From assembly GCA_026388655.1 (NCBI GenBank), contig JAPLJI010000080.1, forward strand, positions 1 through 36,193: 36,193 nucleotides of DNA. The letters are read 5' to 3'. The stretch comes from Pseudomonadota bacterium (GTDB lineage: Bacteria > Desulfobacterota > JAPLJL01). Position numbers and translations under genes: made by a program. Below are positions 7,490 through 35,862 of the stretch, piece by piece. The notes beneath the pieces are model-generated. The model saw only the letters and a list, made by a program, of their open reading frames with translations. It was not told the DNA's origin and did no database searches. Within the stretch, counting starts at the first letter, position 1, and the number at the start of each line of letters is the position of its first letter.

Positions 7490-7655
7490 GTAGTCTGCCG
7501 ATTCACGTGTCCCGTCACTGGGCGGGATCGGCGCTTTTGAAAAATCGCCCGATCCCTCCCGTATCGGGATAAATCCCTCTGAAGTCGGGACAAGTAAATC
7601 GGGCAACTACACAATTTTTTGGAAATACCAACTGCATTTTTCGGGTTAAAATGAA
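7490..7655. repeat. Head-to-head REP pair with conserved flank (ndk-mtnP gap)
   Basis: The element begins GTAG (7490) and ends CTAC (7610). Hairpin arms lie at each end (CTGCCGATTC / GGATCGGCGC, and GGGATAA...AAATCGGGCAAC). It is followed by a conserved flank at about 7611-7651 containing GGAAATACCAACTGCATTTT and CGGGTTAAAATG. The reverse complement of this flank recurs next to the REP pair at 28271-28373, and in part at 35629. A GTCATTCC half-element precedes it at about 7470. This explains the whole 245-bp gap; I see no gene there. Confidence 0.7.
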
Positions 7656-8595: not shown

Positions 8596-8827
8596 AATGT
8601 CAAAGTTCAAAATCCAAATGACAAAATAATGCCAAAGTTCCAAGTTCAAAGTTCAAATGACCCCCCCAAAAACCCAAAAGCAAAATCAGATTTGTTATTT
8701 TTTTGTTTTTTAAACTTTATTTAAACTTTGGATTTAAGCATTTGAACTTTTATTTTAGGTGTTTATTTGGCATTTGAACTTCTATTTTGGACATTTATTT
8801 GACATTTGAGCTTTGAACTTTGACATT
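8596..8827. repeat. AAAGTTCAAA-type repeat array with long inverted ends
   Basis: The mtnP-gatB gap is made of short A/T-rich words such as CAAAGTTCAAATG and TTTGAACTTT. The first 16 bases (AATGTCAAAGTTCAAA) and the last 16 (8812-8827) are perfect inverse complements, so the whole spacer can fold as one long hairpin immediately before the gatB start. Related arrays occur at 16595-16715, 19741-19800 and 28213-28240. Confidence 0.75.
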
Positions 8828-10280: not shown

Positions 10281-10350
10281 CCAATAATCAAATCCCCACT
10301 TTCAAATATTTATTCATAAGCAACTAAATAAGGCCACTGGAAAACTCTTA

Positions 10351-10668
10351 AAATGTCACCCTGAGCCCTTCGCTCTTTGTCATTCCTTCATTTCATTCAG
10401 GACGGCGCCTGAATCATTCACTTTCTGTCATTCTGAACACGTTCACTTCGTTCAGTGTAAACTCCGTGAAGAATCTCAAGGCGCTTATCAGGGTAAACGC
10501 CAGCGAAGGGTCTGATTTTAAAAGTCTTTCAGATGGAAGAGAGATTCTTCGCCTCCCTCCTTCGCCAATCCATCCTTCGCAGAAACACTGCTTCGGAGGA
10601 CAGGGGCTACGGAGGACAAGTCGGCTCAGAATGACAGGAAAGGTATTTTACGATGGTCTCAAAATAAA
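10351..10668. repeat. Dispersed repeat of the GAAGAATCT family (gatB-cpoB gap)
   Basis: The 510-bp gap between gatB and cpoB has no credible gene. Bases 10351-10563 are, with some divergence, the reverse complement of 35664-35850. Shared words include GCTCTTTGTCATTCCTTCAT, GACGGCGCCTGAATC and GAGATTCTTCGCC. The tail, TTTTACGATGGTCTC, recurs at the ends of copies at 27560 and 34395. Downstream at 10680-10780 lie smaller hairpins, CCCGTGGCCTCTGCCGCGGG and a GTAG-type unit on the minus strand, just after cpoB. Confidence 0.75.
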
Positions 10669-16578: not shown

Positions 16579-16594
16579 CGTTCATTCCGACCAA

Positions 16595-16715
16595 TGCCAA
16601 ATGCCAAAATCCAAATGTCAAAAAAAGTTAAAATTCAAAGCTCAAAACTTCCATCTTGTAAATGGTTTTTTCCAAGCAGCTTATTTCAATTTTGGAATTT
16701 GAGCTTTGACATTAG
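16595..16715. repeat. CAAATGCCAAA-type inverted repeat array
   Basis: Short A-rich words (CCAAATGCCAAAATCCAAATG, split by small changes; ATTCAAAGCTCAAAA) are answered by their complement (TTTGGAATTTGAGCTTTGAC) on the far side of a short loop. It belongs to the same family as 8596-8827. Confidence 0.65.
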
Positions 16716-19472: not shown

Positions 19473-19804
19473 CATTCGCCCGGGATCCGAAGGTTATCTA
19501 GTTTCTTCAACTCTTAATCTCAACGCGACGAATTACGTTCATCGATGGCGCTGCTTCCGCCTTTGGCGGAATCCCGCCAGGGGCGGTGATCGTTTCGTCT
19601 TCCGGGCAACGTCCTGCGGATTTTTAAGCCGATAACCGTATGACCCAACCGATACGAGCCGCGTAACCGCAACCGGTAAGCCTAATCCCGGAAAATCATA
19701 AAGAAACCTGCCCGGAAGGCTCTCCGGGCCGTCCCGACTTTATGCTTACTTGGGATTTTGGATTTGGAGATTAATTGGGATTTGGGATTTTGAGCTTGGG
19801 ATTT
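19473..19804. other. Unexplained 330-bp spacer between convergent nrdJ and aminotransferase genes
   Basis: No gene is visible. Two adjacent hairpins, CCGCCTTTGGCGG and CCGCCAGGGGCGG, lie near 19559-19588. A further hairpin, CCCGGAAGGCTCTCCGGG, is near 19709-19726, without a T run. Between them is a CCGATA/AACCG-rich stretch (about 19630-19700) with no match to an RNA family I know. The last 60 bp is a TTGGGATTTTGGATTT-type repeat array related to 8596-8827. Confidence 0.5.
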
Positions 19805-20938
19805 TTATTTCCGGGTGGTCAGCTTTTCCAGGGTCTCAAAGAACTGCTGGATCTCGGCCTGGGAATTGTAGAAGTGCGGGGACAGCCGCAAGGCATTGCC
19901 CCGGACTGCGGTCACGATCTTTTCGGTTAAAAGCTTGCGGTGGACGAACTTGGGATCCGGCACCTTGAGGCTCACGATCCCGGAGCGTTCCCCTTTACCC
20001 CAGGGGGAGAGCACCGGGATCTCGCGTTCCGTGGCTTCCTGGTAGATATAGTTGGTCAGGGTGAGGATCCGCTCGTAAATCGCCTCGATTCCGATTTCAA
20101 TCAGCAGGTCGAGGGCGGACCCGAGGGCGAAGATCCCGATTATGTTCAGACTCCCGCCCTCGAAGCGGGCGGCGTCGGAGCGGAGGGTGAAATCAATCCG
20201 GTCGAACTCCCGGGGCTTGACCACGCTTTTCCAGCCGACCGAGACCGGCTTGAGCAGTTCGAGATTTTCCCGGCGGCAGTAAAAAATCGCCACCCCCTCC
20301 GGGGCCAGCATCCACTTGTGGCCGTCGGCGGCGAGAAAGTCGATTTTTTCGTCGCGGACATCCAGGGGGATCGCCCCCACGCTCTGGATCCCGTCCACGC
20401 AGAAGAGAATGCCCCGTTCCCGGCAGATCTTCCCGATCTTTTCCAGGTTGGCCCGGAAGCCGTTCTGGTACTGGACCGAGGAAAGGGCGACTAGGCGGGT
20501 GCGGGGATCGAGCTGGGATTCGATCATCTCCGGGGTGATCCGGCCGTCCGAGGCGGAGATGATTTTCAACTCCACGCCGATTTCCTTCAGGTTCATCCAG
20601 GGGTAAACATTGGAGGGAAACTCCAGGTCGTTGATGATGACCTTGTCTTCCGGGAACCAGTTGAGGCCCGCGGCCACCCAGGAAAGGGCCTCGGAGGTAT
20701 TCTTGGCGAAAGCGATTTCATCCGGGTGGGCCCCGATCAGGCAGGCGGCCTGATCGCGGACCCTTTCCACCTCCTGGTCAAACTCCTGGGTGAAGATGCC
20801 CCCGCCCTCGCAGGCCCGCTGGAGGAATCCTTCCACCGCTCCCACCACCCGGGTGGAGAGGGGAGCCACCCCGGCGTGGTCGAGGTAAATCAGCTCGTCA
20901 ACGACGGGGAAATATTTCCGGACTTCTTCGATGTTCAT
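19805..20938 (-). CDS. Class V aminotransferase / cysteine-desulfurase-like PLP enzyme
   Basis: The 377-residue fold-type I PLP enzyme starts YLDHAGVAPLSTRVV, then AFAKNTSEALSWVAAGLNW (cofactor-phosphate loop). ALSSVQYQNGFRANLEKIG, CVDGIQSVGAIPLDV (the aspartate pairing with the PLP ring) and AADGHKWMLAPEGVA, with the Schiff-base lysine, follow. It is of the SufS/isopenicillin-N-epimerase-like group. I see no clear catalytic-loop cysteine near the C-terminus as in desulfurases, so a transaminase, lyase or epimerase role is possible; the substrate is unknown. Its ATG (20938) lies 41 bp inside the 3' end of the preceding barrel-protein gene, so translation is probably coupled, though a functional link is not obvious. 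Confidence 0.85.
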   Translation of the reverse strand: MNIEEVRKYFPVVDELIYLDHAGVAPLSTRVVGAVEGFLQRACEGGGIFTQEFDQEVERVRDQAACLIGAHPDEIAFAKNTSEALSWVAAGLNWFPEDKVIINDLEFPSNVYPWMNLKEIGVELKIISASDGRITPEMIESQLDPRTRLVALSSVQYQNGFRANLEKIGKICRERGILFCVDGIQSVGAIPLDVRDEKIDFLAADGHKWMLAPEGVAIFYCRRENLELLKPVSVGWKSVVKPREFDRIDFTLRSDAARFEGGSLNIIGIFALGSALDLLIEIGIEAIYERILTLTNYIYQEATEREIPVLSPWGKGERSGIVSLKVPDPKFVHRKLLTEKIVTAVRGNALRLSPHFYNSQAEIQQFFETLEKLTTRK

Positions 20939-23915
20939 AGCCGAGGTTCCAGAGTTCGTAATTCATTGTAGCATAAAATTGGGTTTCCCCGTCCCGGTTC
21001 AACCCTCGGGCGAAAGAAAATTGGAAAAGAACTGGGATTGCGTACCCCAGGGTGGTTTTCAGGTTGAGGGAGCCCCCCACCCCGACCCGAAAGGAATGCA
21101 GTTCGTAGAGATCGGCCCCGGAAAGCCCGAGATCCGAGAAAACCGAAGCGTAAACCAGGTTGAGGTAGACCGGCAGGGTGGAAAGGCCGCGTTCGATGAC
21201 CCAGGGCATGGTTTTCAGATTGAGGCCGACCAGCACGGCATATTTGGCGGAGAGGTCAGGATAGCCCCGCGGGTAAAGCTGGTAGGAGCTGTCAGGTTGG
21301 TAGCCGATACCGGCCCGAAGGGAAGCCGCGGCCCGGGCGGGGAGGGGAAAAAAGAGAATTTCGTCCGCCCGGAAACGGTTGATGTTAACCTCGCTTCCCA
21401 GGGCCCGCAGGGTGTTTTCCATCCCGAAGATAACCCATTGGCCCTGAACGGTTCCCGGGGAAAGGGGAAAAGCCTGGGTAGAGTCGTAGATAAAGGTAAC
21501 CTCCGGCCCCAGGAGCCAGAGGGGTTGGGGTTTTTCCCCGGAGGGCAGGACGGAAAGTGGTTTTTTATAGGTTTGATTGAAGGCGAGTTCAAACGCCGCC
21601 GATTTTTGATATGAAAGAAAGGGAAAAATAGCCGCCGCCCGGCTTTTCTGGGAATGCAGCCAGAAAAAGCGCCGGGATTCACCCTGCCCCCATTCCTCCG
21701 GAAGGTAATCCAGGGAAGCGGAAAGGGAAAACCGGGGATAAAAGGAATCTTCTTCGTAATAGATGTATCCTCCCGCCCGCTTCGCCCCCGAGTGGTAGAA
21801 AGGATTCAGGATATAAAGATGCCTGCCCAGGACATCCCGGGCGCCGGTGATGATTCCCGCGGCCATCCCTCGCCATTCCCCGCTGGTTTGGAAGAACGAG
21901 AAGAACGGGATCCAGAAGCGGGGAATGAGACTGGACCAGGGGGAGTATTTGACTGGTGAACTAATGGATGGTGTACAACCTTGTTTTATGTTGTTTCCTA
22001 TGCCGTCATTCCCGTCCCGCATCAGAGTACGGGATAAACTCCAGCGGGAATCCAGTCCGGAAGAGATGGATTCCCCCGTATCAAGTACGGGGCAGGCTCG
22101 GTCAAGCCCGGAATGACAATCAAAAGAAAGAGATTTTTGATGTAATTCGGTTTGGTAATTGCCCCTCTGGGGTTCTTGTTCTGAGATCCCATTCGGGGTC
22201 GAGGGAGAATTTGGTAATTGGTCATTGGTATTTTCGGTTTGGACCGGCTGCCATTTTTCCGGCTCGCAGGGAATGGTAAAAAGATCGAACCCCGAGGCCC
22301 CGTAGCCGGAAAAAAGGATTTCTTTTCCGTCCGGGGAGACGGCGGGGGCGAAGGCCCCGGTTTCGAGATTGGTGACCTGACGGAAATTTTTCCCGGCCGG
22401 GGAATAAGCATAAATATTGTATTTTCCGTTTCGGCTGGAGGAGAAAACGATCTCTTTCCCGTCCGGTGACCAGGTCGGGGAGATATCATCCCCGGGATCG
22501 GAGGTCAGGCGTTCGAGGTTCCGGGTAGAAAGGTCCAGGAGGTAGAGATCCAGGTTCCCGGAGGAATCGGCCGCGGAGAAGACGAGGTTTTTCCCGTCGG
22601 GGGAGAAACGGGGCTCGAAGGCGAAGGGGAGCTCCGCGGTTCCGGACCAGACGGTTTCAGGGTTATCCCCCTCCCCATCGAGCAGGACGATCTCGCTCCG
22701 TCCGGGTTTAAGGCGCGTGGCCGCGATTGAGTCTCGGACCGGGGAATAATCGGGATAGGTCAAATGCCGGCCGCGGGTGAGACGGACCAGGCGTTTCTCC
22801 TCCAGGTCGAATCGGTAGAGGTCGGAAACGATCTCGGTTTTCCAGTTGATTTCCTCCTGGGCGAAGATCAGGGATTTTCCCTCCGGGCCGAAGGCCAGGG
22901 TGGCCCCGGAGTTGCGGAGGACCAGCTTTCGCGGGGAAGAAGGTTGCGCGCTCGAAACAGAAAAAATGCCCGGGTATTCGCGAGGGGTTTCCCGGGTGTA
23001 AACGATCTCCCGGCCCGAAGGGGAGTATCTTCCCCCGTAAGTGAATTCGTGAGAGGCAGTGAGGGGCCGGGGCTCCGGAGTCTCATCCGTGGAAACCCCC
23101 GGAGGCGGGGATTCGGCCTGGAGGGATTTCTCCCATTCCCGCCAGAGGGCGGGATAGTTTTTCCCCAGGATATTTTTTGAGTTCAGGCTGATCAAAAAAG
23201 GCAAAATCATTCGGGAGTGGGAGATCTCGAGCCGGTAAGGAACTTCCGCTCCGTAGGTTTCGCTGAGGTAGCGGTAGAACCCCGATCCGAAGATGTAGGG
23301 GTATTTGCCGCCCGGCCAGCTGGCCAGGACCCCGCTGCCCCGGTCAATCGCGGGGAAGCGTTTTTCCCGCGCTGCGGTTTGGAGCAGGAGGTCCGAGAAG
23401 GGATGCCGGCCCCGGCCCTTGCCGCCCAGCTCGGTCTCGGCGTGGGCGGCGATCCCCTCGATGAGCCAGGTGGGTTCCACGGAGTTGGGGAAGATCACCC
23501 GGCCGAAGATTTTCCGAAAGACCGCGGGCACCCCGCGGGCCTGGTCCAGGTGGAGGATGTGGGTGTATTCGTGCAGGATGAGCGTGTAAAGCCAGTCCCG
23601 GTAGGCGAGGAAGGATTCTACCGGCGGAGGGGCGGGATAGAGCTCGATCGTGTTCAGGGGAAAGGGGGTGGCCAGGCCGTTGGAGATGTCGGTATGGGTG
23701 GTGAGGACGATCTGGGTTTTTCCCGGGGGTGAGTACTGGAGCAGGGGGGAGAGGCGCCGGTGGACGTCTTCGGCGATCCCGGCGATTTCGGTAGCCAGGT
23801 TTTCCTGTCCGGCGGGGAAGTTGACCACGAAATGCCCGGTTTCCAGGCGGTAAAATTTCTGGCCGGGCGGGACGGCGAGCAGGGACAGGAGCAGATAAAA
23901 AATTAACGGATTCAT
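20898..23915 (-). CDS. Large surface protein: zincin-like domain + TolB-type propeller + outer-membrane barrel, with an inserted repeat
   Basis: The 1005-residue protein has a signal peptide (MNPLIFYLLLSLLAVPPG). A gluzincin-like domain carries HEYTH (His115-His119) and WLIEGIAAHAE (Glu153). About five PD40 propeller repeats follow (about 280-550: RYSPSGREIVYTR, FSPDGKNLVFSA, WSPDGKEIVFSS, VSPDGKEILFSG). A C-terminal region of about 350 residues has alternating aromatic strands typical of an outer-membrane barrel. A linker at about 560-652 is made of translated repeat DNA, including a 113-bp GTCATTCC element. I prefer ATG 23915 for the signal peptide; GTG 23939 adds eight residues. Its role could be outer-membrane peptidase or assembly; unknown. 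It overlaps the aminotransferase gene downstream. Confidence 0.85.
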   Translation of the reverse strand: MNPLIFYLLLSLLAVPPGQKFYRLETGHFVVNFPAGQENLATEIAGIAEDVHRRLSPLLQYSPPGKTQIVLTTHTDISNGLATPFPLNTIELYPAPPPVESFLAYRDWLYTLILHEYTHILHLDQARGVPAVFRKIFGRVIFPNSVEPTWLIEGIAAHAETELGGKGRGRHPFSDLLLQTAAREKRFPAIDRGSGVLASWPGGKYPYIFGSGFYRYLSETYGAEVPYRLEISHSRMILPFLISLNSKNILGKNYPALWREWEKSLQAESPPPGVSTDETPEPRPLTASHEFTYGGRYSPSGREIVYTRETPREYPGIFSVSSAQPSSPRKLVLRNSGATLAFGPEGKSLIFAQEEINWKTEIVSDLYRFDLEEKRLVRLTRGRHLTYPDYSPVRDSIAATRLKPGRSEIVLLDGEGDNPETVWSGTAELPFAFEPRFSPDGKNLVFSAADSSGNLDLYLLDLSTRNLERLTSDPGDDISPTWSPDGKEIVFSSSRNGKYNIYAYSPAGKNFRQVTNLETGAFAPAVSPDGKEILFSGYGASGFDLFTIPCEPEKWQPVQTENTNDQLPNSPSTPNGISEQEPQRGNYQTELHQKSLSFDCHSGLDRACPVLDTGESISSGLDSRWSLSRTLMRDGNDGIGNNIKQGCTPSISSPVKYSPWSSLIPRFWIPFFSFFQTSGEWRGMAAGIITGARDVLGRHLYILNPFYHSGAKRAGGYIYYEEDSFYPRFSLSASLDYLPEEWGQGESRRFFWLHSQKSRAAAIFPFLSYQKSAAFELAFNQTYKKPLSVLPSGEKPQPLWLLGPEVTFIYDSTQAFPLSPGTVQGQWVIFGMENTLRALGSEVNINRFRADEILFFPLPARAAASLRAGIGYQPDSSYQLYPRGYPDLSAKYAVLVGLNLKTMPWVIERGLSTLPVYLNLVYASVFSDLGLSGADLYELHSFRVGVGGSLNLKTTLGYAIPVLFQFSFARGLNRDGETQFYATMNYELWNLGYEHRRSPEIFPRR
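22005..22117. repeat. GTCATTCC...GGAATGAC palindromic element inside a coding sequence
   Basis: A 113-bp element bounded by GTCATTCC and its inverse GGAATGAC, with internal inverted arms. It is translated in frame on the minus strand as CHSGLDRACPVLDTG... and lies in the linker between propeller and barrel of the large surface protein. A relative without coding potential lies at 27302-27458, and a half-copy near 7470. Adjacent bases (about 22150-22235) contain TTGGTAATTGGTCATTGG-type repeat words, also translated. Confidence 0.8.
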
Positions 23916-23949
23916 CTCAACAATTTTACCCTCTCCCACTCATTCCAGG

Positions 23950-24407
23950 GTGAGTTTTTTCAGTTTAACCCTCTCCCCTTGTGGGACTTGTCCTGAAGGC
24001 TCGTCCTGAAGGAGAGGGCTTGGGTGAGGGGTCAGTAACAACATGATTTTTCACCCTCCCCTCAATCCCCTCCCATCTAGGGAGGGGAGATGTTGTTTGG
24101 GAGAATCATTTCTTTATATTCCCCTCTCCCCGGTTAGCCCCCGAGTTTTACTCGGGGGGAAAGGGTTGGGGTGAGGGGGTGGAAATAACGGGTTAATTTG
24201 AACATTCATGATCCGAAATATATTTTCAACCGACCAGGGTTAATTCTATATTCAAAGTGGCGGTGAGGGTATAGATTTCCAATGATCATTTTTTTGTTTT
24301 GTATTTGCCTCATTTATGAGGCTCGTTGGAAGAAAAACCTCGTCGCCCGATCCTTCATGCTTCAGGACAAGTCCCTCCGCTGTCGGGATAAATAAATCGG
24401 GCAACTA
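23950..24407. repeat. Repeat-filled gap: CCCTCTCC arrays and a degenerate REP pair
   Basis: From about 23965 to 24185, three inverted-repeat blocks of the type CCCTCTCCCC...GGAGAGGG...GGGTGAGGG lie in a row; a shorter relative is at 34885-34940. From about 24300 to 24407 a degenerate REP pair runs from GTATTTGCCTCATTTATGAG to ATCGGGCAACTAT. It resembles the intact pair at 28319 (GTAGTTGCCCGATTTATCGG). I see no gene from 23940 to 24484. Confidence 0.65.
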
Positions 24408-24549: not shown

Positions 24550-24966
24550 TTATTTGCCGGCCGGCTTCGCCGGAGCCGTAGCAGCGGGTGCCGCAGGCGG
24601 GGCCGGAGCCGTAGCAGCGGGTGCCGCAAGCGGGGCCGGAGCCGGGGCAGCAGGCTTAGCTGGAGCGGCCGGCTTTGCCGCGGTAGGCGGGGTCGGAGCT
24701 GGGGCCGCCGGAGCGGGTTCGGTCTTCGAGGCTTCGACCTTATTGGCGGCCGGGTTAAGGGTGGTTTTTCCTTCAATCACTACCTTGTCCTTGATTATGT
24801 GCCAGCAGGCCTTCCCGACCACCTTTTTAATGTCTTTAGGGGATTTAAAACGCACTTTTGCCCGCTCATTGAGAATGGCCTGGGCGGTTTTTTCCTCCAG
24901 ATTGAGGAGTTTCAACTCGTCCAGGGTGGCGGTATTTATATTCACGACTCCTTTCCAATTTTCCAT
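24550..24966 (-). CDS. Small helix-hairpin-helix protein with Ala/Pro-rich repeat tail
   Basis: The 138-residue protein has one ComEA-like helix-hairpin-helix domain (about 1-70: VVNINTATLDELKLLNLEEK, then AQAILNERAKVRFKSPKDIK). An Ala/Pro/Lys tail follows (about 85-138) with APAATAPAP repeats encoded by a 33-bp tandem repeat. ATG 24966 has AAGGAGGAAGTATC upstream; an in-frame start at 24990 would precede that site. No signal peptide is visible, unlike the paralogous protein encoded upstream at 25016-25669, which has the same VVNINTAT domain. The HHH fold in ComEA binds DNA non-specifically, but the role here is unknown. Both genes share strand and the terminator at 24485. Confidence 0.8.
   Translation of the reverse strand: MENWKGVVNINTATLDELKLLNLEEKTAQAILNERAKVRFKSPKDIKKVVGKACWHIIKDKVVIEGKTTLNPAANKVEASKTEPAPAAPAPTPPTAAKPAAPAKPAAPAPAPLAAPAATAPAPPAAPAATAPAKPAGK
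24569..24655. repeat. 33-bp tandem repeat in the HHH protein tail
   Basis: The unit starting GCCGGAGCCGTAGCAGCGGG occurs at 24569-24601 and 24602-24634 with one base change, followed by a partial third copy to about 24655. The unit is a multiple of three, so copy-number change alters only the length of the Ala/Pro tail. Confidence 0.85.
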
Positions 24967-27211: not shown

Positions 27212-27585
27212 GGAAAGCTATTAAGCGATAAAAACTCAACTCGTTGAATTATTATTGAACTTGTAATTCCCCTTGGTTTTGCCACGGGGTTACCTTATTT
27301 CGTCATTCCGCATCCCCAATCAAGTTGAGGACATGCTTGATGCGGCCTGCTCGAGCTGACGCTCGTGTCGGCTAGGGAATCCAGAATTTATTGAATGACG
27401 ACATCTGGATTCCCGTTCCCCGCTTAAGACCTGCGAGGACAAGTTTCACGGGAATGACGATGCGGATTCCTCCCGCCGCTGGGGGGGTGAAGAATCTTTC
27501 TTCCGATGAGGAAGTCAGAAGAACCAGATCCTTCGCTGGTGCTCAGGATGACATTATGAGCGTTTTACAATGGTTTCCGTAAAAG
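27212..27585. repeat. GTCATTCC and GAAGAATCT repeats filling the gap before lptC
   Basis: A GTCATTCC...GGAATGAC element spans 27302-27458, relative of the one inside the surface-protein gene. A GAAGAATCT-family copy spans about 27489-27575, containing GAAGAACCAGATCCTTCGC, CTCAGGATGACATT and the TTTTACAATGGTTTC tail. No gene is visible. Confidence 0.7.
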
Positions 27586-28212: not shown

Positions 28213-28471
28213 TTATATTGTAAATTCTAAATTCAAAATTCCAAACAATCTTAAAAAACCATGATTTTAGAAACCGTTATAAACCCGAAAAATGCTGTTG
28301 GTATTCCCAAACAATCCTGTAGTTGCCCGATTTATCGGGCGCTTTTTTAAAAACCGCCGATGAATCGGCCTACTACATAAAGTTCAGATCGTAAAAGACG
28401 ATGAGGAAGAGAGATTCTTCTCCCCCGCCATAGGCGGGGGAGAAGAATGACAAAGTAAGTGTTATTTTAAG
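28213..28471. repeat. REP pair with conserved flank and GAAGAATCT copy between kdsC and lptC
   Basis: From 28213 a short AAATTCAAAATTCC array is followed (28271-28318) by ACCCGAAAAATGCTGTTGG, the same flank as at 7611-7651 in reverse. Then comes a REP pair GTAG (28319) ... CTAC (28373) with hairpins TTGCCCGATTTATCGGGC and GCCGATGAATCGGC. A GAAGAATCT-family piece with CCCCCGCC/GGCGGGGG arms (about 28385-28465) ends the gap. It splits the kds/lpt operon. Confidence 0.75.
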
Positions 28472-34224: not shown

Positions 34225-34412
34225 GTCAGGAGTCGGGAGTAAGGAGTTAGGTGTAATGCCTCAATCAAATGACATATTTTCTTTTTGTCATTCTGAGTCC
34301 CCATCTATGGCAGGGGCGAAGAATCTCTCTTCCGTCGGAGAAATCCGAAAAACCAGATCCTTCGCTTGAGCTCAGGATGACATATCGAGGGTTTTGCAAC
34401 GGTCTCTTCAAT
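34225..34412. repeat. GAAGAATCT-family dispersed repeat after mutS2
   Basis: About 34287-34407 starts GTCATTCTGAG, contains GGCGAAGAATCTCTCTTCCG, AACCAGATCCTTCGCTTGAG and GGATGACAT, and ends TTTTGCAACGGTCTC. It aligns well by eye with 27489-27575 and in part with 35672-35730. No gene is visible. Confidence 0.75.
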
Positions 34413-35599: not shown

Positions 35600-35628
35600 A
35601 AGATCAAGGCCATCCATCTTTTCCAGAT

Positions 35629-35862
35629 TAAACCCGAAAAATACAGTTAGTATTTTCGAATATTATATGGTGGGGGCGAAGAATCTCGTTTCTATCGGAA
35701 AACTCATAAAAATCAGATCCTTCGCGAAGTTTATCCTGAGCGCCTTGAGATTCTTCACTTCGTTCAGAATGACAGGAAGTGAAGGATTCAGGCGCCGTCC
35801 CGAATGAAATGAAGGAATGACAAAGAGCGAAGGACTCAGGATGACATTTTTAGTGGTTTGAC
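35629..35862. repeat. Dispersed repeat, inverted copy of the gatB-cpoB gap element
   Basis: At 35629-35655 the flank ACCCGAAAAATAC...GTTAGTATT resembles the flank at 28271. From 35664 to 35850 the sequence is the diverged reverse complement of 10351-10563, including GGATTCAGGCGCCGTCCCGA and ATGAAGGAATGACAAAGAGC. The minus-strand 90-codon frame across it is a shadow of the repeat. Confidence 0.75.

Follow-up and report, generated by a model that had tools for sequence, protein, structure and literature searches.

A 113-bp palindromic element lies in frame within a long gene of the window (the whole stretch of 36,193 nucleotides analysed here), and it is very probably a REP of the CGTC-tagged type, present as a head-to-head dimer with long arms, that entered an unconstrained linker after this species had split from its two sequenced congeners. 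The observations on which this reading is built are a repeat family recognised by sequence, copy number and dimer orientation, the absence of the element from orthologues, an open frame, and purifying selection on both sides of the linker. The host gene is laid out as follows:

20898-23939, minus strand: host gene, 1013 aa (list of open reading frames, PD40 and TolB matches, orthologues)
22254-23072, minus strand: TolB-like propeller region, limits approximate, residues ~391-577 (PF07676, TIGR02800, TolB structures)
21948-22253, minus strand: hypervariable inter-domain linker, residues ~563-664, holding both repeats (same-genus orthologue alignment, codon profile)
20901-21947, minus strand: conserved C-terminal domain, beta-barrel suspected (orthologue conservation, Ka/Ks 0.28-0.35)

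The 1013 residues are counted from a GTG, and the ATG at codon 8 is the likely start, in close agreement with the 1005 codons of the preliminary description. The product is probably an envelope protein, with an N-terminal region carrying HExxH (HEYTH), a TolB-like propeller, the linker and the conserved C-terminal domain in this order. The propeller matches PF07676 (E 3.5e-25) and TIGR02800 (E 1.5e-36, yet under the cut-off of TIGR02800), TolB structures were matched by profile in the same part, and the PD40 and TolB matches end at residue ~543-577. The element had been placed between a propeller and a barrel; it does lie between the TolB-like propeller and a conserved C-terminal domain, but for the barrel a Pfam search gave no family match, a profile search of solved structures no relative, and the single-sequence structure model of the domain has a pLDDT of 32. 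A protein scan of the named genomes found no relative.

The element itself is composed of two arms and a spacer:

22005-22117, minus strand: 113-bp head-to-head REP-like heterodimer, tags CGTC/TGTC outside, residues 608-645 (sequence, family comparison, folding)
22005-22054, plus strand: arm A (GTCATTCCCG...CGGGAATCCA), a unit with long arms, of a sort that in the family contains an inner CCCGC...GCGGG hairpin (family comparison)
22055-22066, no strand: spacer between the arms, 12 nt (sequence)
22067-22117, minus strand: arm B (GTCATTCCGGGCTTGACC...CGGGGGAATCCA), the second long-armed unit (family comparison)

Its sequence (GTCATTCC...GGAATGAC), ends and coordinates could be read from the DNA as first described, and the minus-strand frame crosses it without a stop, as had also been claimed. 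The predicted peptide, CHSGLDRACPVLDTGE...MRDGND, comprises ~38 aa (in full CHSGLDRACPVLDTGESISSGLDSRWSLSRTLMRDGND), and two of the six frames of the element are open, one on each strand. With a length of 113 bp, not divisible by 3, the element alone shifts the frame, and other bases of the linker must therefore have changed. The tags are CGTC at 22004-22007 and TGTC on the other strand, and both arms carry the CCA tail. The arms are ~50 nt long, with outer stems of ~7 and ~5 bp and an interior of ~30 nt or more that has its own hairpin; at their outer ends and in their tails they agree with the short units of the family. Neither long arm shows the canonical stem of 8-9 bp with a loop of 4-5 nt, so the window copy is a non-canonical, long-armed variant, a name also suggested by the mixing of long and short arms in dimers. 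Rfam returned no match at the gathering threshold and a chance match alone in the linker, and a literature search by sequence word gave, among the matches listed, unrelated titles alone. In the named genomes, an exact 30-mer of arm A occurs only in two MAGs, bacterium STA_72 (G002) and Proteobacteria LacPavin_0920_SED1_MAG_56_8 (G001).

Its sequence places the element in a dispersed family that shows the traits described in the literature for CGTC-tagged REPs. Chance is exceeded by far, with 296 instances (133 + 163) of the pattern TCATTCC-N6-36-GGAATCCA in the 3.56-Mb own genome against 0 of the reversed control, and the folding of the element as DNA has a z-score of -3.40. A DNA search with the element found at least 42 matches in the own genome, a lower bound since 40 of the 151 candidates were scored, together with 19 in G001 and 38 in G002. 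The sample, made up of the window, 39 loci surrounding matches and 52 surrounding the pattern sites listed first, contains 156 own-genome units at 110 sites, arranged as 40 pairs with the tags outside, 0 with the tags inside, 5 same-direction clusters and 65 singles. A relaxed search yielded 141 distinct units (282 strand-wise matches), 130 with a CGTC or TGTC tag and 129 with a CCA tail; an 8-bp stem closes a loop of 4 nt (n=54) or 5 nt (n=43) in 97 of the 141, and the stems vary with compensation, for instance CCCGCGAAAGCGGG, CCTGCGAAAGCAGG and CCCACGAAAGTGGG. The spacers of 39 dimers measure 10-108 nt, and the arm lengths are 26/49 or 25/50 in 14 of these and 49/50 in 5. The non-coding relative mentioned in the preliminary description is also real:

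27302-27458, no strand: head-to-head relative with other arms, intergenic (sequence reading)

A search with the host protein across 59 genomes (own included) gave matches in 56, mostly to the propeller repeats alone. Among the matches listed, homologues with both halves are those in G001 and G002, of the same genus, and in G032 and G028. Identity to the same-genus orthologues is 80% overall, with 85% in the N-terminal part and 73 and 78% (G001 and G002) in the C-terminal part. The gap between the alignable halves, in search coordinates, measures 258 nt for the window, against 117 for G002, 60 for G001, 72 for G028 and 54 for G032. The orthologue alignment that had been proposed as a check showed that the linkers of G001, G002 and G032 are shorter and without the element; for G028 gap length alone was used, and the absence of the element rests on the three aligned sequences. 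The two distant homologues, in G032 and G028, likewise have shorter linkers, and the aligned one of G032 is element-free. The Ks values point to a sister relation of G001 and G002, which would make a gain on the window branch the simpler history, aided by the element-free distant homologue; the polarity thus comes from parsimony and distant homologues. Codon use in the linker is non-coding-like (codon profile -0.37 to -0.53 around the element), and the region is too variable for exact insertion boundaries or a target-site duplication to be defined.

The same linker contains a further repeat:

22162-22200, minus strand: core of a second dispersed repeat (~50 bp), unrelated to the REP dimer (listed matches, aligned copies, in-gene test)

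The flanking repeat words that had been noticed at about 22150-22235 are therefore real, and 22162-22200 is the core of this second family. Its consensus is near GACCCCGAATGGGGTCTCAGGACGAGAACCCCAGAGGGGC and it is common in all three genomes of the genus; among the matches listed for the block 22118-22240, 28 are in the own genome, 16 in G001 and 32 in G002. Among 19 copies of the core examined for an in-gene position, from the window and from 18 of 19 further loci, only that of the window was clearly within a conserved gene, and the copies L071 and L075 were in open frames. In places the second repeat directly abuts REP arm fragments (G002:C46:18055-18126, G001:C393:9860-9933). It is conceivable, if rather unlikely, that the linker was filled in one or a few events, by recombination or gene conversion, with intergenic DNA already bearing both repeats. 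Two unrelated dispersed repeats within ~45 bp in one linker, the adjoining of a REP arm part and the second repeat in G002 and G001 as well, and the low codon score across the whole linker would fit such an event. However, no intergenic locus was found to carry this combined sequence: in the three genomes the right flank of the element (21942-22004) matches nothing else significantly, and further matches to the left block lie mainly in its core.

For the preferred reading, insertion of the dimer itself, arrival may have occurred by REP-type transposition acting on a single-stranded hairpin. The dimer would have survived if the linker accepts any open peptide, the frame would have been restored by accompanying small changes, since 113 is not 3n, and the insert would now be translated as a mostly neutral flexible spacer.

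The linker of G002 carries ACCAACTC quasi-repeats, for which 14 more dispersed matches, some of them weak, exist in the G002 genome; the linker of G001 resembles these quasi-repeats weakly. In the own genome, a lipoprotein gene (L194, G000 C10, ~1440-1580) also has words of the ACCAACTC type in frame, and its G002 orthologue is shorter and different at the same spot. We tentatively consider that, within the genus, the linker could be a recurrent sink, rebuilt in each species from whatever dispersed repeats its genome carries: the REP dimer and the 50-bp repeat here, the ACCAACTC quasi-repeats in G002. A search for the translated linker peptide of G002 gave no further long ORF with it in frame, which limits the idea. 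If the idea were true, new coding sequence for linkers would steadily be supplied by intergenic repeats.

Several other repeats were observed in the window. The quasi-periodic words AAAGTTCAAAATCC, ACCAACTCACCAACT and AAGTTGGTAAGTTGGT (8596-8827, 16593-16713, 19771-19803 and 28215-28248; also in L193, L191 and L194) fill intergenic spaces and sometimes coding linkers, and by their look they are neither plain tandem repeats nor one family. A 98-nt inverted pair at 92% joins 10341-10438 and 35762-35859. The repeat GGCGAAGAATCTCTCTTCC...CAGATCCTTCGC is present in three direct copies and one inverted (10502-10553, 27477-27577, 34306-34406, 35666-35725), and another around TAAATCGGGCAACTA and AACCCGAAAAATGC in both orientations (7545-7647, 24343-24407, 28282-28334, 35628-35660). 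At 24560-24672 a 33-bp tandem repeat encodes the Ala/Pro-rich tail of a helix-hairpin-helix-like protein.

We also evaluated whether the insert could be functional, the 38-aa spacer or an mRNA hairpin tuning domain spacing or co-translational folding. This appears improbable: the frame is kept and the fold is strong (z -3.40 as DNA), but the congeners have linkers of 20-39 codons of unrelated sequence, and the insert has been seen in one species.

Nei-Gojobori Ka/Ks values for the window against G001, the window against G002, and G001 against G002 are, respectively, 0.25, 0.31 and 0.24 in the N-terminal part, 0.18, 0.16 and 0.16 in the propeller, and 0.35, 0.28 and 0.447 in the C-terminal domain. 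Downstream of the insert, relaxation in the window does not exceed that seen between G001 and G002, which lack the insert, and with purifying selection in the domains on both sides of the linker the host gene looks live. A pseudogene, or a division into two proteins at the element, is very improbable, although a length other than 3n and the non-coding look of the linker codons might suggest it: the 1013 codons are open throughout, Ka/Ks downstream of the insert is not raised in comparison with the relatives, and the homologues have a one-piece architecture. The least credible explanation is an assembly artefact joining two contigs at the repeat, for although the assembly is a draft of 194 contigs and misjoins classically occur at dispersed repeats, the two halves are parts of a single orthologous gene with the same order in G001 and G002 and the same conserved 3' end, and a misjoin would hardly be expected to rebuild a gene in frame.

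Location inside a gene is the exception for this family. Among 107 evaluable own-genome sites, 13 have 40 or more open codons on either side in some frame and only one, the window copy, is gene-internal, which shows strong exclusion of REPs from genes otherwise; in the two relatives, 0 of 17 sites have a frame open for 40 codons on both sides. Eight candidates were discarded as spurious frames or because the gene starts after the repeat (L085, L090, L104, L146, L147, L164, L167, L113), and four by codon score alone (L133, L138, L160, L173). It should be noted that the local codon score did not flag the window copy either (-0.03/-0.08), which was accepted on the whole-gene profile and the orthologues, so that a comparable copy in a gene of low conservation could escape notice; the count is also blind to units within frameshifted genes. 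The other proposed check, a search for ORFs containing the translated peptide, gave 83 + 12 + 28 = 123 matches in the three genomes, among which no second gene-internal copy was found, long open frames alone being opened singly. These long-frame cases are upstream of a gene start (L105, L236, L242, where the gene begins after the repeat) or in ORFs that look spurious (L230, L243, L244, L245, L246), and the other matches, according to the match table, are in short or interrupted frames. The proposal that this lineage tolerates the spread of repeats into domain linkers does not hold as a general habit of the REP family, given the one own-genome site and none in the relatives; the ACCAACTC quasi-repeats of the G002 linker and the own-genome lipoprotein gene back the general idea weakly, through other repeat types. 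REP units directly upstream of gene starts, as in L105, L236 and L242, can lengthen the 5' end of an ORF in mechanical calls, and such extended ORFs are likely a source of false intragenic REPs.

The element shares the head-to-head doublet architecture with the REPINs mobilised by RAYTs (GTAG REPs). However, its tag is xGTC rather than GTAG, and a RAYT gene flanked by the repeat was not found: among the 13 Y1_Tnp genes of the three genomes, the only class considered, none is bracketed by units. RAYT mobilisation as in REPINs was rejected as a shown mechanism because none of the 7 Y1_Tnp genes of the own genome is flanked on both sides; at one of these loci (L122) a single unit lies ~430 bp downstream. 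RAYT-type action in trans is possible.

The closest resemblance is to the CGTC-tagged REPs. According to the sections of Di Nocera et al. 2013 used here (PMC3733652), these have a tag CGTC (or TGTC, CCTC) unpaired at one end, a stem of 8-9 bp with a complementary AT start, a loop of 4-5 nt and a 3-bp tail, mostly CCA; head-to-head dimers dominate and tail-to-tail ones are rare, a linked transposase gene is in general absent, and the units, present in hundreds, are mostly intergenic and at times in frame in genes. The family described here has the xGTC tag, the AT-initiated ATTCC/GGAAT stem, the CCA tail, the predominance of head-to-head dimers, hundreds of mostly intergenic units and no linked transposase of the Y1_Tnp class; it differs in the ~50-nt arms with nested hairpins of the window copy and in its host, an uncultured lineage that does not figure in those sections. 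Neisseria dRS3, classed in the same source as CGTC-1, is described there as mostly clustered, whereas the own-genome units are scattered singles and dimers. Neutrality of such inserts in flexible linkers is already put forward as a possibility in the discussion of PMC3733652, and our case agrees with the suggestion that inserts falling into such linkers survive; it is thus a clean new example, with a long-armed variant, and no new kind.

In-frame palindromic inserts are established, in the parts of PMC2229807 and PMC3733652 consulted, for Rickettsia and other bacteria, and the present case is a well-supported further example of REP insertion in a gene. The parallel with Rickettsia palindromic elements drawn in the preliminary description is apt, because RPE-4 and RPE-6 are classed as CGTC REPs in the sections cited of PMC3733652 and so belong to the same superfamily. 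In-frame intragenic palindromes are common to RPE-4, RPE-6, also RPE-1, and the window, where repeat-free orthologues are available too. The host differs, many genes are hit in Rickettsia and one here, and the likeness is by class and not by sequence; the window adds a case outside Rickettsia of a CGTC-type REP as predicted protein sequence, documented by shorter linkers in orthologues and by measurements of selection on either side.
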